Position numbers and translations under genes: made by a program. The notes under the pieces were generated by a model, which was given only the letters and a program-made list of their open reading frames with translations, was not told the DNA's origin and ran no database searches. Below are positions 20,172 through 30,917 of a stretch of 33,182 nt of DNA, one piece after another; the stretch's first letter is position 1, and each line of letters begins with the position of its first letter. The stretch covers positions 1 to 33,182 of the IMG/VR virus record IMGVR_UViG_3300030117_005909; one strand, given 5' to 3'. Source of the stretch: a virus.

Positions 20172-20188
20172 CGTATTCTCTGAATACG
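20172..20188. promoter_or_regulatory. Perfect palindrome just downstream of the late promoter (operator candidate)
   Basis: CGTATTC-TCT-GAATACG, 7-bp arms with a 3-bp spacer, centred about 13 bp downstream of the predicted start point of the 20200-20227 promoter. The position is right for a repressor that blocks the packaging/structural genes. A hairpin in the 5' leader is the alternative reading. Confidence 0.5.
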
Positions 20189-20199
20189 TATATCTACAA

Positions 20200-20227
20200 A
20201 TTATACAGCTGAGTTATAACTTTTCAA
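20200..20227 (-). promoter_or_regulatory. sigma70-like promoter of the packaging/structural operon
   Basis: On the minus strand TTGAAA (20227-20222), a 16-bp spacer and a perfect TATAAT (20205-20200). It lies in a 151-bp AT-rich gap between the DUF6362-like gene and the HGG-motif gene and faces the terminase genes. With no phage RNA polymerase in the window, this is the natural start of late transcription by host polymerase. Confidence 0.65.
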
Positions 20228-20260: not shown

Positions 20261-20737
20261 TTAAGACAATAAATAGAGATTTCTGTTCAATAAGTCAAAT
20301 TTTATTTCAGTTTTTATTTTCTCTACTAGCTTTGATAGGATTGTCAGATATTTATTTTTAATTGTAGTTCTATGATAACCAAAATGTCTAGCAAGCTCTG
20401 TCCATTTATATTTTTTAGCTCTCATCCATAGCAACTCTCTTACCTCTATAGGATTATCAACTATATCTTTATCAACTAACATCATAATTTCTATTGCAAA
20501 CTCCCACCTGGTTATCTGTCTTGGTGATGCTCTGAGCTTCAATTGCTTTTGATAATAACCAATATCTTTCTTATCATAGCTAGTAATCAATATATCATAC
20601 ATACTTGGCGATCCAGGATGCCTTGGTTTTGATATAAAACGTTCTGTACGAGCTGCATCTTCAAATAAATTAACAATGTTATCTATCTTTAAGATGTCTT
20701 CTCTTAAATGATAATTAAAGTCTTGTTTAGTCTCCAA
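20261..20737 (-). CDS. DUF6362-like helix-turn-helix protein
   Basis: A 158-residue protein. The C-terminal half has S-P-R-Q-I-T-R-W-E-F-A-I-E (70-82), E-L-L-W-M-R-A-K-K-Y-K-W-T-E-L-A-R-H-F-G and HRTTIKNKYLTILSKLVEKI, the pattern of DUF6362, a helix-turn-helix protein frequent in alphaproteobacterial phages. I infer DNA binding. It could be a late regulator or an accessory packaging protein, since it is the last gene before the late promoter. It overlaps the upstream gene by 11 bp. Confidence 0.65.
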   Translation of the reverse strand: METKQDFNYHLREDILKIDNIVNLFEDAARTERFISKPRHPGSPSMYDILITSYDKKDIGYYQKQLKLRASPRQITRWEFAIEIMMLVDKDIVDNPIEVRELLWMRAKKYKWTELARHFGYHRTTIKNKYLTILSKLVEKIKTEIKFDLLNRNLYLLS

Positions 20738-21254
20738 GCTTTTTCTCCTTCATAACCTTAGTAAAAATCCATGGATATTTTATTTCTTTTTGTGATATTT
20801 GTTTTAGCTCTGCATCAGTTAAACTGAATAACTTATCGTAAAGATCGTATTGATCTAAATTGGCAAACTTGTACGTAATATTTAATTGCTCTGGCTCTCG
20901 TTTTAAATGTTGCTGTAAGTTGGTCCAACCTTTACCAGAATTATAGCCTAGAAATCCAATTGATTTAATGAATGTTTTATATCTTGGCAAATCAAATTCT
21001 AATCTTCGTAAAGCTTTGTTATCTATAACAGAAACTAAAGCATCACCTTCTACAGTTACACTACACAAATCATTTAATATCTTTTTTACTCTATCAACTG
21101 GCAACAATAAATCGTTTGCAGTTTGTACGTAATTAATAAATGGTTTTAAAGTTCTTACATTATACTGCGAGCACCAATAGTTATAAGCTTTAAATGCTGT
21201 ATCTGTAATTTGTAATTTTAATACTTCTTTATCTGCTATGTAAAATTTCTGCAT
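20727..21254 (-). CDS. Unknown protein with possible winged-helix N-terminus
   Basis: A 175-residue protein. Residues 16-65 (TDTAFKAYNYWCSQYNVRTL ... VDRVKKILNDL) read like a winged-helix or replication-initiator-type fold, followed by a segment containing FLGYNSGKGWTNLQQHLKRE. No named family recognised. It overlaps the upstream gene by 26 bp and the downstream one by 11 bp, forming a three-gene unit transcribed away from the early operon. A DNA-binding role is only suggested. Confidence 0.5.
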   Translation of the reverse strand: MQKFYIADKEVLKLQITDTAFKAYNYWCSQYNVRTLKPFINYVQTANDLLLPVDRVKKILNDLCSVTVEGDALVSVIDNKALRRLEFDLPRYKTFIKSIGFLGYNSGKGWTNLQQHLKREPEQLNITYKFANLDQYDLYDKLFSLTDAELKQISQKEIKYPWIFTKVMKEKKLGD

Positions 21255-21696
21255 AATCTTTTTGTTGTGCTGGTGTTAAACTATTTATCTTTTTTTTAAA
21301 AATTTCTTTGCGTGTACAACTTGGATAATGCTTTACCTGGAATGATGCTAAAAAACTTATCCATTGCTCCCAGCTGCAATGTTGGATCTTCGAATAATTT
21401 GGACTTATTTTTTTTACTGATACTCTATAAACTCTTTCTAATTCTTCGTGATACCAAATGATGTATGCGTTTAAATTAGACTTTTCAGCAAGTCTTCGTA
21501 TTAATCTATGTCCTTTTTTATAATCTTCTCTTGGTCCTTTATGCCTAGTCAATTCAGCAAGCATTAAAGGCTCACTGCACGCTATACACGAGCATACTTT
21601 GTCTAAATCTATATAAGCTATACCATCGTGGCTTTCACGGTGAGTTTTGGAATATGCGTTAAAACTCACGTCTTTTGCGTATATTTGGCGTGCCAT
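21229..21696 (-). CDS. Unknown protein, first leftward gene of the divergent region
   Basis: A 155-residue basic protein (MARQIYAKDVSFNAYSKTHR). Cysteines at C-S-C-I-A-C (34-39) and later single Cys/His residues could bind a metal. The segment G-H-R-L-I-R-R-L-A-E-K-S-N-L-N-A-Y-I-I-W-Y-H is the most conserved-looking part. No family recognised. It begins about 40 bp downstream of a predicted minus-strand promoter (21745-21772) and so should be expressed under control of the 21781-21797 palindrome. Confidence 0.55.
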   Translation of the reverse strand: MARQIYAKDVSFNAYSKTHRESHDGIAYIDLDKVCSCIACSEPLMLAELTRHKGPREDYKKGHRLIRRLAEKSNLNAYIIWYHEELERVYRVSVKKISPNYSKIQHCSWEQWISFLASFQVKHYPSCTRKEIFKKKINSLTPAQQKDYAEILHSR

Positions 21697-21744
21697 AATT
21701 AAGTGCCACTTCTAGCTAGATAAACAAAAAATGGCTGTTTTCGC

Positions 21745-21772
21745 TCTATATAAGCGGAATATAAGAAATCAA
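21745..21772 (-). promoter_or_regulatory. Leftward promoter candidate of the divergent region
   Basis: On the minus strand TTGATT (21772-21767), a 16-bp spacer and TATAGA (21750-21745), each 4 of 6 matches to the sigma70 consensus. It would start transcripts near 21738, 42 bp upstream of the 21696 ATG. Confidence 0.45.
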
Positions 21773-21780
21773 GACTTATT

Positions 21781-21797
21781 TTCTACATTTTGTAGAA
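21781..21797. promoter_or_regulatory. Perfect 17-bp palindrome between divergent promoters (operator candidate)
   Basis: TTCTACA-TTT-TGTAGAA, 7-bp arms and a 3-bp centre. It lies 8 bp from the leftward -35 and 6 bp from the rightward -35 box, so one bound dimer could act on both promoters. The adjacent rightward operon begins with two putative DNA-binding regulators, the natural candidates to bind it. Confidence 0.6.
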
Positions 21798-21803
21798 TAA
21801 TAG

Positions 21804-21831
21804 TTGCTTTTATAGGAATAACTCTTATATG
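21804..21831 (+). promoter_or_regulatory. Rightward (early operon) promoter candidate
   Basis: TTGCTT (21804-21809), a 16-bp spacer and TATATG (21826-21831). It faces the early operon. If used, transcripts start near 21838, almost on the ATG at 21839, which would make a leaderless message, or the true start of the first gene lies further in. Confidence 0.4.
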
Positions 21832-21838
21832 TACGAAA

Positions 21839-22501
21839 ATGCAAAAAACAAAGAAAAAATACAACTTTCAGCACGTGCAAAAGTTTCCTGTAAATTCTTC
21901 CGATACACAAAACAGTTCTCAAAATGTAGAATTAAAAATGATGAAGAAAGATAAATATAATAAAAAATTTTATGAAAATGCTGTTGCAACAGTTAATGAT
22001 GCAAATCTTAACAGAGCAAAAAGAATTACAAAAAGAGTATTTAACCGATTACAAAATTTAAATAGTAAAACAAAAATTTTAACAAATAAAACTATGCCTA
22101 CTGTTATCACACTATTTAAAGACGTTGTTTTTCAAAATTTAGATTTACACGATGCTTGGCATAAAGATCCAATATTAAAAAACTTTATTGGTGACACAAA
22201 ATTTTACCTTTTACATAAAATTATGAAAAAAACATTAACTGGTAAACCTTGTTACAAAGAAAAGCTTTGCACTTATAAAAATTTAGGTGTTTCAATAAAA
22301 ACTGCATATAAAATTTTAGATGAATTAGTTCAAGATGGATATTTAATTTATATGGATGCTTTTGATACAGATGAAAAAAGAAATACAAAAAATATTAGAC
22401 CTTCTGAAGATGTAGCTGTTGCATACAATTCACTATATTTAACACAACTTGAAAAACAATATAACCATGTAAAAGATTTTTTAAATGAGAATAAGCCATA
22501 A
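21839..22501 (+). CDS. Winged-helix regulator-like protein, first gene of the early operon
   Basis: The frame is open from an ATG at 21731, but the first 36 codons are hydrophobic, lack a ribosome-binding site and overlap the divergent promoters and palindrome, so I prefer the ATG at 21839 (220 residues). ATG at 21938 is another option. The C-terminal part has L-C-T-Y-K-N-L-G-V-S-I-K-T-A-Y-K-I-L-D-E-L-V-Q-D-G-Y-L, a winged helix-turn-helix with a wing carrying D-E-K-R-N, like MarR/replication-initiator-type regulators. The N-terminus is lysine-rich. It probably controls the divergent region or initiates replication. The 3' end overlaps the next gene by 17 bp. Confidence 0.55.
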   Translation: MQKTKKKYNFQHVQKFPVNSSDTQNSSQNVELKMMKKDKYNKKFYENAVATVNDANLNRAKRITKRVFNRLQNLNSKTKILTNKTMPTVITLFKDVVFQNLDLHDAWHKDPILKNFIGDTKFYLLHKIMKKTLTGKPCYKEKLCTYKNLGVSIKTAYKILDELVQDGYLIYMDAFDTDEKRNTKNIRPSEDVAVAYNSLYLTQLEKQYNHVKDFLNENKP

Positions 22502-23825
22502 TAAATATTCAATACAAAAAATAGATGACAAAGTAAAGTTTGTCGATTTTAAAGAAGGAACGGTTTCAGATTTAGTTCATACCTTTGTTAATAAATTTAA
22601 CGGATCTTTATTATCTGAAAATACTGCCAAGGTAACTTTCTTTTACGCTAATGGAAATGTCAGAGAAATATTTGGACCAGAAAATGAAATTTATATTTTA
22701 TCAAAAAAAGTAATTAACGATAAAAAAAATTATGTCGATAAAGAAAAGATGATGACGATATTTATGGAGCAATGGAAACAAGCAGCTCCTTCATATTACA
22801 ATTATTATAATCCAAATCTAAACTCTCGAAAAGCAAGAGGTATAATGGGTTTATTGTCTGAAGTTGATGAAGAAAAATTTAAAATACAGCCTGGAGAAAT
22901 ATTAAAAACACAACTAGCAAGTCAAAAAATTAGCACTGAAAAATTTGCAGAAACTTTAAATAAAAATAAATCATCAGTGTACAGTCATATTAAAGGTGAA
23001 AGAGCTCTATCAAGAGATGTAGCAATAGAGTATTCAAAAAAACTTGGTATAGATCCAGTAGATTTAATGTTTGAAAAGAAAACTGTTGAAGTATGGGGAT
23101 ATGTAGATTTTATAAAAAAATCAATTAAAAACAATTTTACATCTTACAAACATCCAGGAGAAATAGTACCAGTTGAAGGTGTTGCACCAAAAGTAATTAT
23201 TGGTAGAGATTATTATTCTCCTAATTTAAGAGCAGTCAAATCTACAACAGACGGATCTATGTATGATGATAAAACATTTTTTTACTACAAGGATAATCAA
23301 AGAAATTTAGAAACACACAACAAGCTTTGTGCTGTAGGTGGTATGTTTAAAAACGGTTTATTTGGTTTTTGGATTGGTATTTATGAATTATATCAAGGCA
23401 AACATAACTTAATTAATCCAGATCCTTTTGCAAAAGATAAATATATTTTAGAAGATTTTGAGCCAAATTTTATTTCACCTATTGCTTTAGTTTCAGATGT
23501 TAAAGCTGTAACTGATAATACTTCAGCAAAATCAATTATACCTGAACATTTATATTATGAAGAAGCTAGAAAAGAGAGACAACTTTACGATCTAGAATTT
23601 AGATATAAAAAAGCAATTACAGAATTAGAGTTGCAAGAGACACAACAAAAAAAAATATTTGAGAAAACAGAAAAATTAAAAGAATTATTTGAAAAAGATA
23701 AAAAAGTATTAGAGCAACAAGTAGAGAATGCAAAACGTAGTGTTGAAAAAGCGATTGAAGAAAACAAGTTAAAACTTTTCGATCTAAGAGAAGTTGTTGA
23801 GGAGAACCAGAAGAGACGTGCGTAA
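22485..23825 (+). CDS. XRE helix-turn-helix protein with LexA/S24-like domain and C-terminal coiled coil
   Basis: A 446-residue protein. Residues 1-130 are a domain I do not recognise. About 136-200 hold an XRE-type helix-turn-helix (LKTQLASQKISTEKFAETLN, SSVYSHIKGERALS, LGIDPVDLMF). About 203-330 resemble the LexA/CI C-terminal fold: V-E-V-W-G-Y-V-D-F, then STTDGSMYDDKTFFYYKD, where G-S-M would hold the Ser. Where LexA has its catalytic Lys, the sequence reads IGIYELYQGKHNL, with no obvious lysine in place. The last ~85 residues form a long coiled coil. It is the best phage repressor candidate. Lack of self-cleavage is inferred. Confidence 0.6.
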   Translation: MRISHNKYSIQKIDDKVKFVDFKEGTVSDLVHTFVNKFNGSLLSENTAKVTFFYANGNVREIFGPENEIYILSKKVINDKKNYVDKEKMMTIFMEQWKQAAPSYYNYYNPNLNSRKARGIMGLLSEVDEEKFKIQPGEILKTQLASQKISTEKFAETLNKNKSSVYSHIKGERALSRDVAIEYSKKLGIDPVDLMFEKKTVEVWGYVDFIKKSIKNNFTSYKHPGEIVPVEGVAPKVIIGRDYYSPNLRAVKSTTDGSMYDDKTFFYYKDNQRNLETHNKLCAVGGMFKNGLFGFWIGIYELYQGKHNLINPDPFAKDKYILEDFEPNFISPIALVSDVKAVTDNTSAKSIIPEHLYYEEARKERQLYDLEFRYKKAITELELQETQQKKIFEKTEKLKELFEKDKKVLEQQVENAKRSVEKAIEENKLKLFDLREVVEENQKRRA

Positions 23826-24114
23826 GTTAGAAGATTATTCAAGTAAAGAACTAAAAGAAATGTTACCTCCACAAAAAGTTGCTAGAGAATTTGGATTAAA
23901 CTCAGACACGTTAGCTTACATGAGAGAATGCAGCAGAGATGAAGGTAGACTTAGAGGTCCAATGTTTTTAAAAGATGAAAATATTATTCTTTATCAAAGA
24001 AAAAGCGTTGTAATTTGGTTACATAAAGCAATGTTCTCGCCAACGGAAAGTGCCAAAAGTGCGGAAACAAACCAAACAAATAAATCAAAAAGAAATCTAT
24101 CATCCGTCAAATAA
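23818..24114 (+). CDS. Excisionase/AlpA-like DNA-binding protein
   Basis: The frame is open from TTG codons at 23794 and 23797, but GTG at 23818 overlaps the previous stop, with GAGGAG upstream, giving 98 residues. Residues 16-65 (M-L-P-P-Q-K-V-A-R-E-F-G-L, TLAYMRECS, GPMFLKDENIILYQRKSVVIWL) follow the winged-helix plan of excisionases and AlpA-type regulators. The C-terminus is a polar tail rich in Ser, Asn and Lys. It could bend attP DNA with the integrase (28714-29979) during excision, or regulate transcription. The integrase is 5 kb away on the other strand, unlike many int-xis pairs. Confidence 0.6.
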   Translation: MRKLEDYSSKELKEMLPPQKVAREFGLNSDTLAYMRECSRDEGRLRGPMFLKDENIILYQRKSVVIWLHKAMFSPTESAKSAETNQTNKSKRNLSSVK

Positions 24115-24152
24115 TAGAAACCAACTAGGATCTAGGTAAAGCATCATACAGA

Positions 24153-24185
24153 TATAATCTTTTATTTCATAGAAGCTCTCTATGA
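24153..24185 (+). promoter_or_regulatory. TATAAT box and palindrome at the start of the nuclease gene
   Basis: TATAAT at 24153-24158 lacks a good -35 box. It is followed by TCATAGA-AGCTC-TCTATGA (24167-24185), a perfect 7-bp inverted repeat whose right arm includes the nuclease ATG. The repeat could be an operator or a hairpin hiding the start codon. It sits in the only gap (67 bp) of the otherwise overlapping early operon. Confidence 0.35.
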
Positions 24186-25210
24186 TTATAAGAGATAAAA
24201 AACTTCAAGATCCATTATTGGAGACATCACTTCCAAATATTTTTAACATATTAGATATAAACCACTGGTCTAGCACTCAAGGATCTTATGCAGATGGACC
24301 ATGGTTTTTTAGATACGGAATTTGCGATCAGAAAACTAGAAGATTGTTTGACGGCAATGCGAAGATGGCTGCTGGTGTAGCAGTTGGTTCAGCTATCCAA
24401 TACAATCTTGCAAACGAAATTTGGAAAATAAATCCAAATACTCAGAAACTTTCTCCATTTGTTAATGAGAAGCTCACTCTGGATCTTTGTATACAAAAGG
24501 TCCAGGAGGAGTTTAACAATTACAAACCAGTAAATGAGAAAGATCAAATAGGTTTCGATAGGTATAAAGAAACTATACCTCAAACAGTTTTACAGCTACG
24601 TGAAGCTGTAGAAACACTAGGCATATCTGGAGACGTTGTTGCGGAAAGTATCCTTTCGTTCCATGACAAACGTTTGCTTTTACCAACTGTAGGAAGATCC
24701 GACCTTGAACTTCTAACAAGTTCTTTTGCTGCTAGTTCTTCATCATCATCCATTGCTAGTGGCAGTTCTTTCTCCTTGTTAGAAATTAAAACAAGCTGGG
24801 ATCGAGTTTCCAAACAAAAAAAAGATGGTTCATGGTCTTTTGTAAATGCAAAAACTCCAGTAGTGCCTAGTCGTAATCACTTACTCCAGTGTGCGTTTTA
24901 TAAAAAATGTAAACCAGAAGCTAGAATACATTTAATCTACGTAGTTAAAGATGGTTTTAAAATATTTAATGAAGTGAATTGTCAGGATCTATCTGACGAA
25001 AATTTAGAAAATTATTACGAAGAGTTATTCAAAGTATTTCAAAGAAGAGAACGTCTGATAATGCGTTACGATAATTTATCAGACAAAGATCAAGCTATTG
25101 CAGAAATCGTCAAGGATTTAGATCCAGTGTTCGATCATCCATATTTATGGTCGATTGGTTCACAATTTGTGCATGAAGCTAAAAAACTTTGGAATGCTGG
25201 AGGTGTTTAA
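24182..25210 (+). CDS. PD-(D/E)XK exonuclease, RecB/Cas4-like
   Basis: A 342-residue nuclease. The catalytic triad reads V-G-R-S-D-L (Asp174) and L-E-I-K (Glu201, Lys203), followed by a QxxxY-type helix (LLQCAFYKK), as in RecB-family and phage exonucleases. It lies directly before an ERF-like annealing gene, the usual exonuclease + single-strand annealing pair for phage recombination and for making concatemers. Between Asp174 and Glu201 there is an insertion rich in serine (residues 180-197), odd for this fold. No Fe-S cysteine cluster is visible. Confidence 0.8.
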   Translation: MIIRDKKLQDPLLETSLPNIFNILDINHWSSTQGSYADGPWFFRYGICDQKTRRLFDGNAKMAAGVAVGSAIQYNLANEIWKINPNTQKLSPFVNEKLTLDLCIQKVQEEFNNYKPVNEKDQIGFDRYKETIPQTVLQLREAVETLGISGDVVAESILSFHDKRLLLPTVGRSDLELLTSSFAASSSSSSIASGSSFSLLEIKTSWDRVSKQKKDGSWSFVNAKTPVVPSRNHLLQCAFYKKCKPEARIHLIYVVKDGFKIFNEVNCQDLSDENLENYYEELFKVFQRRERLIMRYDNLSDKDQAIAEIVKDLDPVFDHPYLWSIGSQFVHEAKKLWNAGGV

Positions 25211-25212
25211 TT

Positions 25213-25800
25213 ATGACTAAAGACAACGATAAATTAATTGCTGCTGTATCAGCGTTTAAGAAAATAGCTGCAAAAGAAGCGATTAAAATACACAACAAAG
25301 ACTACAATCTAGTCAGTACAAGATTAGGTGTAGCAAGAAGAGAACTAGGTATTTCATTAGACCTAGTTGATACGATAGTTCACCAAGACGATAAAAAGGT
25401 GATAGTTCAAAGCGATGCTTACATCGATGGTAAGCATGTCGGAACTGGTTTGGCTGAAGAGATTAGAACTCAAAGTCATATCAATAAGACTTCCGCTTTG
25501 GAGGTAGCTCAATCAAGTGCTTGGGGTAGATGTCTTGCGAGTTTAGGCTTTAGCAATGACAACTTAGCATCAGCAGAAGAAGTTTCTGTTGCGATTGAAG
25601 CTCAAGATCGTCAATTACAAACAGCACTCCAGGAGCTTGGAACAGTCTCTCATCCTGGTAATTACAAATCTTGGTTAGCAAAACATAGAGATATGTTAGC
25701 AAAAATTAAGACAAGTAATCCTATTGCTTACGGAAAATTCCAAGAGCGATTTACGGAGCTGAAATCAAATCTAGAGACTAAAGGAGTGTTAAATGGCTGA
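25213..25800 (+). CDS. ERF-like single-strand annealing protein
   Basis: The ATG at 25213 has GGAGG 9 bp upstream and follows the nuclease stop by 2 bp. This is preferred over the earlier ATG at 25189, and gives 195 residues. The region V-G-T-G-L-A-E-E-I-R ... NKTSALEVAQSSAWGRCLASLGF matches the ERF-type signature (usually ETxAIGRALA). Such proteins anneal complementary strands during phage recombination. Pairing with the upstream exonuclease supports the role. A Walker motif is absent, so it is not a RecA-type ATPase. It overlaps the next gene by 8 bp. Confidence 0.7.
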   Translation: MTKDNDKLIAAVSAFKKIAAKEAIKIHNKDYNLVSTRLGVARRELGISLDLVDTIVHQDDKKVIVQSDAYIDGKHVGTGLAEEIRTQSHINKTSALEVAQSSAWGRCLASLGFSNDNLASAEEVSVAIEAQDRQLQTALQELGTVSHPGNYKSWLAKHRDMLAKIKTSNPIAYGKFQERFTELKSNLETKGVLNG

Positions 25801-26044
25801 CGGTCAAGACACTAAATCTTTTGGAACTGCAATATTAAATACTAATAAAGCTAGTCCTAAAAGTTATGATCTAAAAGGTACTATCGATATTGAAGGTACG
25901 AAGTATCGCTTTGGAGCATACAAATCAACTGCATCAGGTAAAGGCAAACTTCCAGAAGGAAGTCCATATTATTGGATGCACCGTGTAGAAAAGTTGGAGA
26001 TGAACTCTGAAGGTGAGAGTTTCGATCCAGCTGCATTGGAGTAA
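25793..26044 (+). CDS. Small unknown protein downstream of the annealing protein
   Basis: An 83-residue protein, beta-rich, with G-T-I-D-I-E-G-T-K-Y-R-F-G-A-Y-K-S and aromatic residues in SPYYWMHRVEKLEM, compatible with a small OB-like or DUF736-like fold. AAGGAG lies 7 bp upstream of the ATG. Because it follows nuclease and annealing genes with overlap, a role in single-strand DNA handling is plausible. I do not recognise a family, so this is inference from context. Confidence 0.55.
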   Translation: MADGQDTKSFGTAILNTNKASPKSYDLKGTIDIEGTKYRFGAYKSTASGKGKLPEGSPYYWMHRVEKLEMNSEGESFDPAALE

Positions 26045-26048
26045 TTCA

Positions 26049-26222
26049 ATGGACACGGATAGATTTAAGTCAATCGCAATATCAATGCCTTCTTATACTA
26101 AGCTAAAAGAGATGGCTAAGAATAAGTTTGATGCACCAGTAAGCATGGCAAAGATTGTTGAGATGGCGATAAACAAATCTTATGAAAAGTTCGTAGAGAA
26201 TAAAGATGAGCATAGATCATAA
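26049..26222 (+). CDS. Ribbon-helix-helix-like small regulator
   Basis: An open frame extends upstream to 26013, but the ATG at 26049, just after the previous stop, gives a sensible 57-residue protein: D-R-F-K-S-I-A-I-S-M-P-S-Y-T-K-L-K-E-M-A followed by VSMAKIVEMAINKSYEKF. A short beta strand and two helices of this spacing are typical of Arc/CopG-type repressors. It overlaps the next gene by 17 bp. Confidence 0.6.
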   Translation: MDTDRFKSIAISMPSYTKLKEMAKNKFDAPVSMAKIVEMAINKSYEKFVENKDEHRS

Positions 26223-26478
26223 GATAGAGCATATCCGTAAGATCAAGCGTGCAGAGTATGGAAGCTTTACCTTAAACTTAAAGTTAATAGGTAAAACCTG
26301 GTCCGCTCTGCTCGGCTTGGACACACCCATTCCAGCTTACAAAGTAGCTTTAATGTATGCAGCTTCTAAAGTTATTAGAGCAGCTCATGTATACAAAGAA
26401 GATAACTTTGTAGATGGAATAAATTATTTACGAAAAGCTCAAGAATTACAGCAGCAAGAGAATAAAAAAGATGGCTAA
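26206..26478 (+). CDS. DUF6378-like phage protein
   Basis: A 90-residue protein with A-E-Y-G-S-F-T-L-N-L-K-L-I-G-K-T-W-S-A-L-L-G (17-38), then IPAYKVALMYAASKVIRAAH and DNFVDGINYLRKAQEL. This is the layout of DUF6378 (YGD-like start, W-S-A-x-L-G, M-x-x-K-x-x-R-A, D-x-x-x-Y), found in many phages beside recombination or nucleotide genes. The fold resembles all-helical MazG-like NTP-processing proteins, but catalysis is not established. It overlaps both neighbours. Confidence 0.65.
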   Translation: MSIDHKIEHIRKIKRAEYGSFTLNLKLIGKTWSALLGLDTPIPAYKVALMYAASKVIRAAHVYKEDNFVDGINYLRKAQELQQQENKKDG

Positions 26479-26776
26479 AATAATTAATTTTCCAAACTCA
26501 CCTAAAACAACAGCTCAAAAAGATGCGGAGCTGATGGAGCTTAAAAAAATTGAGGTAGAAACCACTTTACAAATTGCTATGTCTTCGGACCTTTGGGATC
26601 ACTATGTAATCACAAAACAAGATATAGATAATTTAGCTCAGTTTGGAGAGGTAATGACTTTTCCACCAATTGCTGCTGCAAGACTTATATCAAAGCTAGC
26701 TGAGTATAATAGAAAGTTAGCAGCTGTAATAGACATAAGTATAGCAACAGAAGAAATTATAGATCCATGGAAATAA
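26471..26776 (+). CDS. Unknown early protein
   Basis: A 101-residue, mostly helical acidic protein (MAKIINFPNSPKTTAQKDAE, then LKKIEVETTLQIAMSS). The N-terminal I-I-N-F-P-N motif resembles short peptides at the start of several small phage proteins but does not identify a family. It overlaps the DUF6378 gene by 8 bp and is followed by an overlapping TAATG. Confidence 0.5.
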   Translation: MAKIINFPNSPKTTAQKDAELMELKKIEVETTLQIAMSSDLWDHYVITKQDIDNLAQFGEVMTFPPIAAARLISKLAEYNRKLAAVIDISIATEEIIDPWK

Positions 26777-27120
26777 TGAAAAAGAGAAAACAAAGAGTAG
26801 TAGAAAATCCAAAAATTACTTATGATAGTTACTTTCACTATCAAAACTTTAGCAGTGATGAGCCTACTGCGAGAATAAATAATTCACCGTGGCACTTAAA
26901 ATATGAAGATGGAGTTCCAGCTTTTTATTTCAGGTATCAAGATACATTTAAGCAAGTGTCCTTTGAATGCTTCATAACCAATGCCAACAACAGTCGAACA
27001 TTTGACTTTAGTAATTGGCAAGATCAGGTTGAAGCTTATTTCAACAAACCACTAGAGGAGGTTAAAAAATGTCTAATCAAGGCACAACAGAAGATCAAAA
27101 AATCTTCAACCATCAATTAG
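26776..27120 (+). CDS. Unknown early protein
   Basis: About 114 residues, from the ATG that overlaps the previous stop (TAATG). An in-frame ATG at 26767 would add three residues. The body has aromatic-rich beta segments (Y-D-S-Y-F-H-Y-Q-N-F, VPAFYFRYQDTFKQVSFECF) and a basic C-terminus (KKCLIKAQQKIKKS). No family recognised. The last 52 bp overlap the XRE gene, whose ribosome-binding site (GAGGAGG) lies inside this gene, so the two are coupled. Confidence 0.5.
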   Translation: MKKRKQRVVENPKITYDSYFHYQNFSSDEPTARINNSPWHLKYEDGVPAFYFRYQDTFKQVSFECFITNANNSRTFDFSNWQDQVEAYFNKPLEEVKKCLIKAQQKIKKSSTIN

Positions 27121-27506
27121 GTAAAAATATAAAATACCTAAGAAAACAAAAAGGCTTAACACAATCAAGAGTTGGCAAAGTCATTAATACTTCGTTCCAA
27201 CAAATTCAAAAGTATGAAAGAGGTACTAATGCACCTCATCCAGCTTCACTTGTTAAGCTTGCATTATTTTTCAAGATTAGTTTGGATAGATTATGTAGTC
27301 AAAATTTAATCAGCGATCTTGAAAGATTTAAAGACAAAGTAAAAGACTTGGAGGTAGCTACAGCAGATGGAGTAGCGGTTCCAATGGAAGGCATGACTAA
27401 CGAAATAGATGCGTTAGTAAAAAAAGTACAGCAGAACTCAGAGAAGTTTGTAGCTGGACAGCCGTTGTTATTTAAATTTAATAAAGAGGTTGATCCATGG
27501 CTGTAA
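27069..27506 (+). CDS. XRE/Cro-family transcriptional regulator
   Basis: A 145-residue protein. Residues 16-75 form a Cro/CI-type helix-turn-helix: L-G-K-N-I-K-Y-L-R-K-Q-K-G-L-T-Q, VINTSFQQIQKYERGTNAP, PASLVKLALFFKISLDRL. The remainder is an acidic helical part without a LexA-like peptidase domain. It could act as Cro/antirepressor against the repressor candidate at 22485-23825. A strong GAGGAGG lies 6 bp upstream of its ATG, giving higher translation than its neighbours. Confidence 0.75.
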   Translation: MSNQGTTEDQKIFNHQLGKNIKYLRKQKGLTQSRVGKVINTSFQQIQKYERGTNAPHPASLVKLALFFKISLDRLCSQNLISDLERFKDKVKDLEVATADGVAVPMEGMTNEIDALVKKVQQNSEKFVAGQPLLFKFNKEVDPWL

Positions 27507-27868
27507 TAAAAGCAAATAAAGTCAAATTTGAGGTAGTTAAACAAAACATACTTGGAGCTGCATCAAAATACATGATTAAACTGTCATACGAGCCTATACA
27601 CTACGAAAGTAATGAGATTGTGAGTATTATACTATGTAATGAAACACCGTATATAACGCTCTCTGAAGAGAAAAGAGATAGTGTAACAACGCTCCAGGAA
27701 ACTGGTCCTTCATTAACACCGCCACCAAAAGTTACAACACCAGAGCAATTGTTCGGCATGGAGCCTACAGTAGAAGAAGTGTCTGAAGCTGCAATTGCTG
27801 ATGAGAACATGGCAATAGCTAGTGGTAGATTAACACCAGAGGATGCTGAATGGCGTATAAAAAAATAA
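27497..27868 (+). CDS. Unknown early protein
   Basis: A 123-residue protein. The N-terminal half is beta-rich (VKFEVVKQNILGAASKYMIK), followed by a proline/threonine linker (GPSLTPPPKVTTPEQLFG) and an acidic helical C-terminus ending RLTPEDAEWRIKK. No family recognised. It overlaps the XRE gene by 10 bp and the next gene by 19 bp, so it is in the same message. Confidence 0.5.
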   Translation: MAVIKANKVKFEVVKQNILGAASKYMIKLSYEPIHYESNEIVSIILCNETPYITLSEEKRDSVTTLQETGPSLTPPPKVTTPEQLFGMEPTVEEVSEAAIADENMAIASGRLTPEDAEWRIKK

Positions 27869-28047
27869 AATCAGGTGAAGCTAGTTTTATATCAGAACAA
27901 AAATTCAACACTGTAGAGGATGCTCATAATAATAGTAATCCTACAAGTGAAGAAGATATTACAATCCAGGAGGTAAAAATTGAGCATACACGTATAAAAA
28001 AAGAAGAAGATAATGAGGAGGTAAAGAAAAATGTCCTTGGACAGTAA
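27850..28047 (+). CDS. Small charged early protein
   Basis: A 65-residue protein, highly charged and probably disordered (EEDITIQEVKIEHTRIKKEE). No domain visible. It overlaps the upstream gene by 19 bp and the downstream one by 17 bp. The downstream ribosome-binding site GGAGG lies within it. Its reality rests mostly on the unbroken chain of overlaps. Confidence 0.4.
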   Translation: MAYKKIKSGEASFISEQKFNTVEDAHNNSNPTSEEDITIQEVKIEHTRIKKEEDNEEVKKNVLGQ

Positions 28048-28288
28048 AGTTGAAAGACTAAATAAAAGGTATCGTGGATTAGCAAGAGTTACTACTGCTA
28101 TCAACGATCTATATATCTACGGTATCTATGAAAGTAATTTTCCTAAATTAATGGAAATTTTAAATAAAGGTAAAGACGCATGTAAAGATCAGATTAAAGA
28201 AACTAAGCATGAGATAGAAGCTAATGCTGGTTATGTAGTGCATGAACCTAGTTTAAAGACAGATCCACTAGCTAAGGAAACTGAATGA
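28031..28288 (+). CDS. Small unknown early protein
   Basis: An 85-residue helical protein (MSLDSKVERLNKRYRGLARV ... DACKDQIKETKHEIEANAGY) with a good GAGGAGGTAAAG ribosome-binding site 7-12 bp upstream of the ATG. No family recognised. Its end overlaps the next ATG (ATGA). Confidence 0.5.
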   Translation: MSLDSKVERLNKRYRGLARVTTAINDLYIYGIYESNFPKLMEILNKGKDACKDQIKETKHEIEANAGYVVHEPSLKTDPLAKETE

Positions 28289-28668
28289 TGACTTATACTG
28301 GTTTGTTTGAGGAAGGAAAAAAGGATGAGCAAATCAGTAAACTCAAAAAAGAAATAAAAGAATTAAAAGCCATTGATAGATCCCACCAAAAGCTTAACGG
28401 TGATTTAAGATTAGAAATAGAAAAATTAAAAAAAGATATTCAGATATTGCAAGAAGGTAACGATGCTATGAATTTATATAGAGATGATGGCATAGGAGCC
28501 AAGTTAGAAGAGATTGTGAGAGCTATGGTTGGACATGTAAAGGTTGCTAGACCATTAATAAATAAATATCCAAGAAACAAATTGTTCTCTACAGCTGTCA
28601 GGAAGATTTCTGAGCATGCAGTAGAAATTCATAAAATTTGCAAAAAAATCAAAAATAAAATCAACTGA
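28285..28668 (+). CDS. Coiled-coil protein, last gene of the early operon
   Basis: A 127-residue protein. Residues 10-57 form a clear heptad coiled coil (EQISKLKKEIKELKAIDRSH, LRLEIEKLKKDIQIL), followed by a mixed helical part ending in a basic tail (ICKKIKNKIN). Function unknown. It ends 46 bp before the convergent integrase gene, with a hairpin between. Confidence 0.5.
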   Translation: MMTYTGLFEEGKKDEQISKLKKEIKELKAIDRSHQKLNGDLRLEIEKLKKDIQILQEGNDAMNLYRDDGIGAKLEEIVRAMVGHVKVARPLINKYPRNKLFSTAVRKISEHAVEIHKICKKIKNKIN

Positions 28669-28713: not shown

Positions 28714-29979
28714 CTAGTTTAAATCTTCGTATACGTGATCTAACGCTTGAGCGATTTTAGCGTCTTTCGGTGAGTTTTTATGTAGATCACCATGCTTTCC
28801 ATAAATACCTCTCGTAGTATTTATATTTTGATGACCTATTTGCGTTCTAATAAAGTTATCAGATAGAACTGGTTGCTCCGCCTGGTTGTCTAGCAATGCA
28901 GTAGAAGCAAAGTGTCTAAATGTTTTAAAAGGTTCGCCTTTAAATTTAGATGATATTACTTTGATGTGTTCATTGTTATCTTCAATAATAGCTAAACCAA
29001 TATTAGCATAAGATCGCCATAAGAAATTTCTTAATTGTTTATCTGTAATTGGCAATCTAGTATTTGCATGCTGAAGTACATATTTTGGATCTTGAATAAA
29101 ATCCTTTTGTCTAGCTTTGAACCTAACTAATAAATGTAAAAGCTTTGATGGCATAATTAATACTCTACCAATTTCTTCAGCTCCTAACCTATCAGCTTTA
29201 GTACCTACAGTAATTTGATTACGCTCATTTATTGTACGATCAATTTTAATACGCTTTGTATTGAAGCTAATGTTGGACCAAGGTATCGCTCTTATTTCTG
29301 CTGGTCTTGCACCAAGATACATAAACAAACAAACACCAATAAAATTAACAAGATCATCATAAGTATAATTCTCTTTGTCTTTAGGTTTGATCTCATTATA
29401 AAGTTTTTTAACTTCATAAAGAGTTATCATTGTAGTTTCTTTTCTCTTGTCAGATCCATCAGTAGGTTTGAGTTCTGGATAATCGTTGATTTCAAAAAAT
29501 TCAATATTATAATTTTTTCTCTCAACTAAATCTTCATTGATGCACCACTCAAACATACCTTTGAATTGAAAGATATGAGTATTACATGTTCTATAAGTAA
29601 AATTAGCTGCACGTATTTTTTTGAAATATTCTTTCAAATGTTTTGCAGATAAATCTCTAAGTAAAACATGTTTAGGAAAAAAGCTTACCACCTTCTCCAT
29701 GTTACGTATGTAAAGTTTAGCCTGGTCCTCACTCATACTATCGTATGTGTTCCATAGCTCATACTTGTAGTTAGCAAATTTAGTCCATGCTTCTACAACA
29801 GTTAATTCAGATACAGCCTTCAAAGCCTTCTCTGGTTCCTTAACTAGATTGTCTCTAAAATCTTGAGCTTCTTTCTCAGTCTCAAATTTAGATACTTGTT
29901 TATATTTACCTAGGTTGTCCATTTGTTGGACCACAAACCATTTACCTCTAGGTACTACTTTTGTCTTAATCATTTTCAT
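28714..29979 (-). CDS. int: Tyrosine-recombinase integrase
   Basis: A 421-residue phage integrase. The N-terminal ~55 residues look like an arm-binding domain (V-P-R-G-K-W-F-V-V-Q), 60-165 are the SAM-like core-binding domain, and 185-410 the catalytic domain. Catalytic residues are Arg225 (G-A-R-P-A-E-I), Lys261, Arg355 and His356 (K-T-F-R-H), His383 (I-G-H-Q-N) and Tyr393 (R-G-I-Y-G). In the H-x-x-R box the first position is Lys352 instead of His. It makes the phage temperate. It converges with the early operon, and the probable attP lies just upstream (30053-30280). Confidence 0.92.
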   Translation of the reverse strand: MKMIKTKVVPRGKWFVVQQMDNLGKYKQVSKFETEKEAQDFRDNLVKEPEKALKAVSELTVVEAWTKFANYKYELWNTYDSMSEDQAKLYIRNMEKVVSFFPKHVLLRDLSAKHLKEYFKKIRAANFTYRTCNTHIFQFKGMFEWCINEDLVERKNYNIEFFEINDYPELKPTDGSDKRKETTMITLYEVKKLYNEIKPKDKENYTYDDLVNFIGVCLFMYLGARPAEIRAIPWSNISFNTKRIKIDRTINERNQITVGTKADRLGAEEIGRVLIMPSKLLHLLVRFKARQKDFIQDPKYVLQHANTRLPITDKQLRNFLWRSYANIGLAIIEDNNEHIKVISSKFKGEPFKTFRHFASTALLDNQAEQPVLSDNFIRTQIGHQNINTTRGIYGKHGDLHKNSPKDAKIAQALDHVYEDLN

Positions 29980-30826: not shown

Positions 30827-30917
30827 GGTGAGATGGGTGAGTTGGCTTAAACCACAGCTTTGCTAAAGCTGCGAAGGTGAAAATCTTCCGTGGGTTCGAA
30901 TCCCACTCTCACCGCCA
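30827..30917 (+). tRNA. tRNA-Ser (anticodon GCU), with encoded CCA
   Basis: Acceptor stem GGTGAGA/TCTCACC is fully paired (30827-30833 with 30907-30913), followed by discriminator G and CCA. The anticodon stem CAGCT/AGCTG encloses TTGCTAA with anticodon GCT at 30862-30864. A long variable arm (GAAG...CTTC), as expected for tRNA-Ser, precedes a T arm GTGGG-TTCGAAT-CCCAC. It would read AGC/AGU serine codons. The gene lies antisense to the surrounding minus-strand genes, one base from the stop of the DUF6321 gene. It may supply tRNA during infection, or be the attP tRNA for integration. Confidence 0.93.

Follow-up and report, generated by a model that had tools for sequence, protein, structure and literature searches.

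A candidate CI-like repressor-operator switch at the sole divergent junction of an HTVC010P-type pelagiphage genome

The intergenic gap between the two divergent gene units of the phage genome analyzed here contains a perfect palindrome, TTCTACA-TTT-TGTAGAA, which probably serves as operator for the CI-like repressor encoded by the phage itself, with one bound dimer controlling both divergent units. This reading, which is drawn from sequence comparison, is considered to best explain the conserved palindrome arms, the enrichment of the AC-N5-GT dyad in related gaps, the natural swaps of repressor genes, the covariation of the recognition helix, the helical phasing of the operators, the predicted repressor fold, the position of the gap at the sole divergent junction of the genome and the presence of an integrase together with an integrated relative.

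Results

The window, i.e., the whole stretch of DNA that was analyzed (viral record IMGVR_UViG_3300030117_005909; 33,182 nt), is, as judged from its gene content and similarity, the genome of an HTVC010P-type pelagiphage of SAR11 (Ubiqueviridae, a family name taken from PMC10504331). It carries the structural and packaging module shared by this type, its packaging/head region is 76% identical at the DNA level to that of Pelagibacter phage HTVC028P, its nearest cultured relative, and 17 cultured pelagiphage records match. As both ends of the window fall in apparently one tail-fiber gene, the genome is probably near-complete and circularly permuted. On the circular map, all genes from 21696 leftwards through the ends to 28714 (the integrase gene) are directed leftward and all genes from 21839 to 28668 rightward, and the gap at positions 21697 to 21838 thus represents the sole divergent junction; this map and this junction (gp04/gp05) are shared by HTVC028P. 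An open reading frame starting at ATG 21731, which would render the gap coding, was rejected, as it would enclose the conserved rightward promoter and as relatives have promoters and operators at this location.

The first leftward gene (21229 to 21696, minus strand) specifies a CxxC motif and is conserved in all HTVC010P-type phages examined, with homologs in 20 phage records and 333 IMG/VR stretches; a Pfam-type profile search returned no helix-turn-helix (HTH) match for this left neighbor of the gap. It is followed by a gene (20727 to 21254, minus strand) whose counterpart in cultured relatives carries the annotation "putative transcriptional regulator" and by an HTH-like DUF6362 gene (20261 to 20737, minus strand; PF19889, E value of 6e-12), beyond which the leftward unit harbors packaging, structural, lysis and integrase genes. 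The rightward unit holds the repressor gene (22485 to 23825) as well as a recombination nuclease gene. A small gene (23794 to 24114), whose start overlaps the end of the repressor gene, directly follows the latter in the window and in relatives; that of L267 (positions 2397 to 2657) is HTH/excisionase-like by eye, with no significant Pfam match.

The palindrome (17 bp, perfect 7-3-7; positions 21781 to 21797) is located between the −35 boxes of two back-to-back promoters, these being TTGATT-16-TATAGA on the minus strand (21745 to 21772; −35 at 21772 to 21767 and −10 at 21750 to 21745) and TTGCTT-16-TATATG on the plus strand (21804 to 21831; −35 at 21804 to 21809 and −10 at 21826 to 21831). It lies 8 bp from the leftward and 6 bp from the rightward −35 box, with 31 bp between the two boxes. 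An earlier note on this DNA had described the palindrome, the hexamers, the 16-bp spacers and both distances, all of which were re-read exactly as stated. The absence of the two promoters from the list of a consensus scanner is explained by their match to the sigma-70 consensus at 8/12 and 7/12 positions (hand count), both being devoid of the last T of the −10 box. The predicted rightward transcript start is at, or no more than 2 nt from, ATG 21839, and the rightward transcript is therefore predicted to be leaderless.

Two degenerate half-copies of the operator core, the function of which is putative, are centered 11 bp to either side of the palindrome center: AC-N5-tt (21774 to 21782) matches the position of the left copy in relatives, and aa-N5-GT (21796 to 21804), which touches the rightward −35 box, aligns with AACTAATAGTT and similar sites in relatives. 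The palindrome itself occurs once in the window, with no other copy within two mismatches. Perfect palindromes with 7-bp arms (loop of 0 to 8) arose in 326 of 2,000 dinucleotide shuffles of the gap (16%) and in 34 of 2,000 shuffles (1.7%) of the 31 bp between the −35 boxes; given the former rate, the window sequence alone is indecisive and it is conservation that decides.

A scan of 2.9 million IMG/VR viral contigs for the palindrome followed by TTG after 4 to 8 bp returned 82 stretches, three of which (L211, L253 and L267) carry homologs of the gap-flanking genes. These three represent two distant lineages, L211 and L253 being near-identical phages, and their proteins share approximately 28 to 35% identity with the window proteins encoded on either side of the gap. 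Each of the three has the palindrome inside the same gap, 5 to 6 bp from the rightward −35 box (6 bp in the window), as TTCTACA-AAT-TGTAGAA in L211 and L253 and as TTCTACA-ATA-TGTAGAA in L267. The alignment across relatives that the earlier note had proposed thus revealed identical arms at the same place as well as retained promoter boxes, and such a combination of constant arms and a free center is the signature of a dimer site.

Access to relatives required a terminase search and alignment queries, as searches of IMG/VR for close homologs of the 21839 and 22485 products returned no match, and the phage collection yielded neither a DNA match near the gap nor a match to the 21839 protein. Relatives L093 to L099, found via the terminase route, encode a left gene product 67 to 72% and a repressor 34 to 38% identical to those of the window. 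A leftward promoter is present at the same place in L093, L095, L096 and L099 (TTGATT or TTGAAT-16-TATAAG or TACAAG), while the rightward side of the L093 to L099 gaps bears a −35 box within GTTGAC followed by TTTATAGGA (TATAGGA in L093), the corresponding window sequence being GTTGCTTTTATAGGA. The rightward promoter is TTGAAA-16-TATATA in L267 and TTGaAA-16-TATATA in the HTVC028P group. The TTTATAGGA (or TATAGGA) element is near-invariant in the rightward spacer, and better conserved than the −10 box, in the window (21809 to 21817), L093 to L099, L128, L176 and L183; TATAGGA was rejected as the true −10 box, given that no −35-like hexamer is found at a suitable distance. In many B-type relatives, TCCTATA or CCTATA is also found close to the start codon. 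The cultured HTVC010P-type phages L003, L004 and L009 possess a divergent gap with back-to-back promoter-like boxes, the −35 hexamers of which overlap in one GTTGACAAC (TTGACA in one direction and TTGTCA in the other).

An unbiased scan of 240 dyad classes across 15 representative gaps with this repressor type placed AC-N5-GT, the core of the window palindrome (ACA-TTT-TGT), among the top three classes, with 24 occurrences against 6.1 expected (z of 7.5, where 95% of shuffle maxima fall below 4.6), these counts overstating independence owing to the shared descent of the relatives. The dyad is present in 13 of the 15 gaps, mostly as two copies and ranging from one to three, and its extended forms covary (AACTAATAGTT, AACCAGTGGTT, AACAAAGTGTT, AGACTGATAGTCT and AGACCAATGGTCT). 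AC-N5-GT was not enriched among B-type relatives; a TTGCA-N4-TGCAA dyad at the −35 box of some of these (L108 and L157) was not singled out by the scan and is not claimed as an operator.

Relative to the rightward promoter, operator centers fall at −38, −48/−49, −59 and −70, i.e., whole helical turns apart, with one L174 copy at −17. This phasing is pronounced (Rayleigh R of 0.98 at 10.5 bp, n = 8, P of approximately 5e-4; none of 100,000 random placements was as good), the eight positions having been reduced by hand to one per lineage, with a stray L001 match left out and shared descent lowering the weight of the result. Positions relative to the leftward promoter are unphased (R of 0.41). 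In the three TTCTACA lineages, the −35 boxes are 24 to 31 bp apart and only 2 to 8 bp separate the site from the leftward −35 box. Members of the AAC-N5-GTT group have one operator copy that overlaps the rightward −35 box; L093, L095, L096, L099 and L187 carry another copy beside the leftward −35 box (center at −42).

The plus-strand gene at 22485 to 23825 specifies a 446-amino-acid CI-like repressor composed of an N-terminal domain of approximately 130 amino acids, a Cro/C1 HTH (residues 134 to 197), a CI/LexA-like C-terminal domain and a long C-terminal helix. HTH_3 is matched in the window protein with an E value of 0.0025 (below the Pfam cutoff when taken alone), and HTH_26 or HTH_3 is matched in 10 of 17 family members with E values down to 2.6e-9. 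The AlphaFold model (pLDDT of 77) has as its top Foldseek match the lambda-186 hybrid repressor 7jvt (E value of 5.1e-5 over 226 columns), followed by the lambda CI fragments 8gmu and 2hnf (E values of 0.005 to 0.008; probabilities of 0.99 to 1.0), and its HTH aligns with those of ImmR, P22 c2 and 434 Cro with Z scores of 10 to 12. No sequence-level match to Pfam S24 was obtained. The product displays two hallmarks of CI-type proteins, a Cro/C1 HTH and a LexA/CI-like C-terminal domain. At the alignment level, the serine of a presumptive Ser/Lys self-cleavage pair, as would underlie SOS induction, is near-invariant in a G-S-M-like motif (S258); no conserved lysine follows, position 298 being an invariant glycine.

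Natural swaps connect this gene to the operator. The left gene products of L128 and L131 are 98% identical and their repressors 33%, the corresponding values for L189 and L159 being 96% and 25%, and within each pair the gaps are alike toward the left promoter and unlike toward the operator and right promoter. The repressor tree places the window between L267/L282 and the AAC-N5-GTT group. A recognition helix of the form S-x-V/I-Y-x-H (window, L267 and L282) accompanies TTCTACA, and Q-S-I/V-Y-x-Q accompanies AAC-N5-GTT; here, L282 stands in for the L253 type, its repressor being 76% identical to the L253 repressor N terminus, such that the helix of L211 and L253 is known through L282 alone. Because the operator is exchanged with the repressor gene and the recognition helix varies with operator type, the 22485 product is the likely binder of the palindrome, which would represent its own operator, and the comparison supports a genuine operator that belongs to this repressor family and is passed on with the repressor gene as an exchangeable cassette.

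The earlier note had assigned putative DNA-binding regulators to both of the next two rightward genes, an assignment which is upheld for 22485 by its HTH and CI-like fold and weakened for the first, 21839 to 22501 (plus strand; 220 amino acids). The product of the latter bears a weak winged-helix/DnaD-like resemblance, with sub-threshold matches (phrog_186, E value of 6e-4; HTH_36 below the cutoff) and a poor model (pLDDT of 40). The gene is an extra one in this lineage, with homologs in L160 and L144 only, at the same place between the gap and the repressor gene. L253 and L267 have the same palindrome, and there the repressor gene directly follows it with no 21839-like gene between; the 21839 product was rejected as the binder on these combined grounds.

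A tyrosine integrase is encoded at the far end of the leftward unit (28714 to 29979, minus strand; PF00589, E value of 4e-9; phrog_1, E value of 5e-32). A 53.8-kb contig of the SAR11 single cell AG-470-O10 contains a relative that encodes both an integrase and a repressor of the 22485 family; in this contig, part of a tRNA-Ser gene and the host genes for sarcosine oxidase, MatE and GatB lie past the integrase. Phage genes next to host genes in this contig indicate that the HTVC010P-type group integrates, as demonstrated for this relative, whose operator type differs from that of the window. By extension, the window virus is probably temperate and its switch probably serves lysogeny; the HTVC028P record (host HTCC1062) makes no mention of lysogeny. 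A complete tRNA-Ser(GCT) gene is present within the leftward unit (30827 to 30917, plus strand), approximately 0.9 kb from the integrase gene, and the integrated relative of the SAR11 contig (G001:C8) is bounded by tRNA-Ser(GCT) on one side and by a truncated tRNA-Ser on the opposite side. The tRNA-Ser gene may therefore be the attachment site; a search of the SAR11 contig for a direct repeat forming an att core returned only a 17-bp match of 94% in opposite orientation within two tRNA-Ser sequences.

Discussion

It is proposed that a dimer of the 22485 product sits between the −35 boxes of the sole divergent promoter pair, thereby serving both units from one site. The bound dimer would most likely keep RNA polymerase off the leftward promoter and hold down its own rightward promoter (autoregulation), and would so stabilize the prophage, its loss allowing both units to run. 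At 8 and 6 bp from the −35 boxes, the dimer should at least hinder polymerase at both; however, being centered at −49/−51, it overlaps neither −35 box, which renders plain occlusion of both polymerases uncertain. We infer, rather than observe, repression of both promoters and a role in lysogeny.

The same dimer might instead act in lambda-like dual fashion, repressing the leftward (lytic) promoter and activating the rightward one, through which it would maintain its own synthesis, by contact with RNA polymerase on a fixed face of the helix. The phasing of operators to the rightward promoter across lineages and their loose spacing to the leftward one would suit this, as would the poor rightward −10 box and the proximity of the leftward −35 box in the TTCTACA lineages, yet we regard it as rather unlikely: the copy that overlaps the rightward −35 box in the AAC-N5-GTT group favors autorepression, the phasing may simply reflect cassette inheritance, and −49 is not a usual class II activator position. 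A broader formulation, ventured as a tentative proposal, is that the repressor is a phased dual regulator which contacts RNA polymerase at its own promoter (activating or holding it) and blocks the opposite one, operator number and specificity evolving by turn-sized steps and cassette swaps; if true, this abundant phage group would possess lambdoid-like exchangeable immunity types. About as doubtful as the lambda-like action is an early-to-late switch of the lytic program, in which the repressor of the rightward early operon would shut off early transcription and release the late, leftward genes, in the manner of p4 of phage phi29 at early/late divergent promoters. The repressor gene does share its operon with a recombination nuclease gene, the leftward unit does contain packaging and structural genes, and a divergent promoter gap between the two units is likewise present in cultured relatives whose gap region was read and has no integrase close by; against this, the CI-like fold, the integrase and the integrated relative point to lysogeny, and the late genes are preceded by a stronger promoter of their own, accompanied by a conserved dyad (20227 to 20200). 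The early/lysogeny switch envisaged in the earlier note retains its divergent promoters, conserved operator, downstream regulator and integrating group, and is corrected as to the repressor gene, which is located inside the rightward operon with the nuclease gene.

The rightward operon encodes a second Cro/C1-type regulator (27069 to 27506), 4.6 kb downstream of the repressor start, as a possible Cro counterpart. That it is the main binder, or that both proteins compete for the site in Cro/CI fashion, is improbable: its product strongly matches phage repressor families (phrog_8, E value of 7e-15) and has a counterpart, gp15, in HTVC028P, but it is the adjacent repressor gene, with its recognition helix, that the operator type follows. 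No homolog of 27069 was found on the swapped contigs (L128/L131 and L189/L159), so that the swaps bear on the adjacent gene only. A chance palindrome in AT-rich intergenic DNA, for which the shuffling rate of the whole gap might speak, is hardly credible in view of exact arms at the same place in distant lineages around a variable center. The 22485 repressor acting from its own operator thus remains the preferred reading.

Repressor-operator switches between divergent promoters are textbook knowledge from lambda, whose operator has the same length, 17 bp, as the window palindrome. The repressors of lambda (CI at OR), P22 (c2) and 434 share with that of the window a Cro/C1 HTH and a CI-like C-terminal domain, the window protein differing from lambda CI by its extra N-terminal extension of approximately 130 amino acids and its long C-terminal helix. 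Like lambda, relatives of the window carry two or three phased operators in the interval that separates their divergent promoters, whereas the window itself has, in place of three operators, one perfect operator and two degenerate half-copies at ±11 bp. Furthermore, its repressor gene lies in an operon with recombination genes, and there is no adjacent cro that would, together with the repressor gene, flank the operator. The earlier note's concept of a single operator as a compact alternative to lambda OR/OL consequently holds for the one site between the −35 boxes of the window and not for the family, in which one, two or three phased copies occur. Nor is such a layout new, since phages with one operator separating divergent genes have been described: immB of the telomere phage PY54 (PMC4488713) has a single 16-bp palindromic operator in such an intergenic region. 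That operator (OR3) differs in being a Cro-binding site placed between the cI and cro genes. In the compact CI/MOR switches of TP901-1 (PMC4892519) and staphylococcal phi13 (PMC8516035), CI is likewise expressed from one member of a divergent promoter pair that encloses an operator (OR); these systems differ in having three operators (OR, OL and OD) and a MOR partner, no such partner being seen in the window, and TP901-1 has strong sites outside the promoter interval.

HTVC028P (MW273921; gp04/gp05) resembles the window in gene order, in its repressor (31% identity) and left gene product (30% identity) and in an AC-N5-GT operator centered at −48 of the rightward promoter, and differs in its operator arms (AGACC...AGTCT) and in having no 21839-like gene. 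No description of the regulation of this junction, nor of an operator or immunity region of HTVC010P-type phages, was found in the papers retrieved. Phages of this type are among the most abundant ocean viruses (PMC12753301), and the group has been reported to use host RNA polymerase, with predicted sigma-70 promoters and "two transcriptional regulator proteins" (PMC10504331). What is new here is the switch region of these phages, with its repressor-operator specificity pairs, its cassette exchange and an operator number (one to three) and position that change in whole helical turns. A named repressor, a likely operator, both promoters and natural specificity pairs are now at hand, which opens SAR11 phages to direct tests of lysogeny and of immunity to superinfection and allows operator type to be read from metagenomes.

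Elsewhere in the leftward unit, a strong minus-strand promoter (TTGAAA-16-TATAAT; 20227 to 20200) is followed by a perfect 7-3-7 dyad (CGTATTC/GAATACG; 20172 to 20188), a T-rich leader and the small-terminase/late genes. Promoter, dyad and poly(T) tract are kept in L093, L095, L096 and L098 to L101 and altered in L104, L108, L124 and L128, and the region from 20172 to 20227 is a candidate late promoter with an operator, attenuator or antitermination hairpin.
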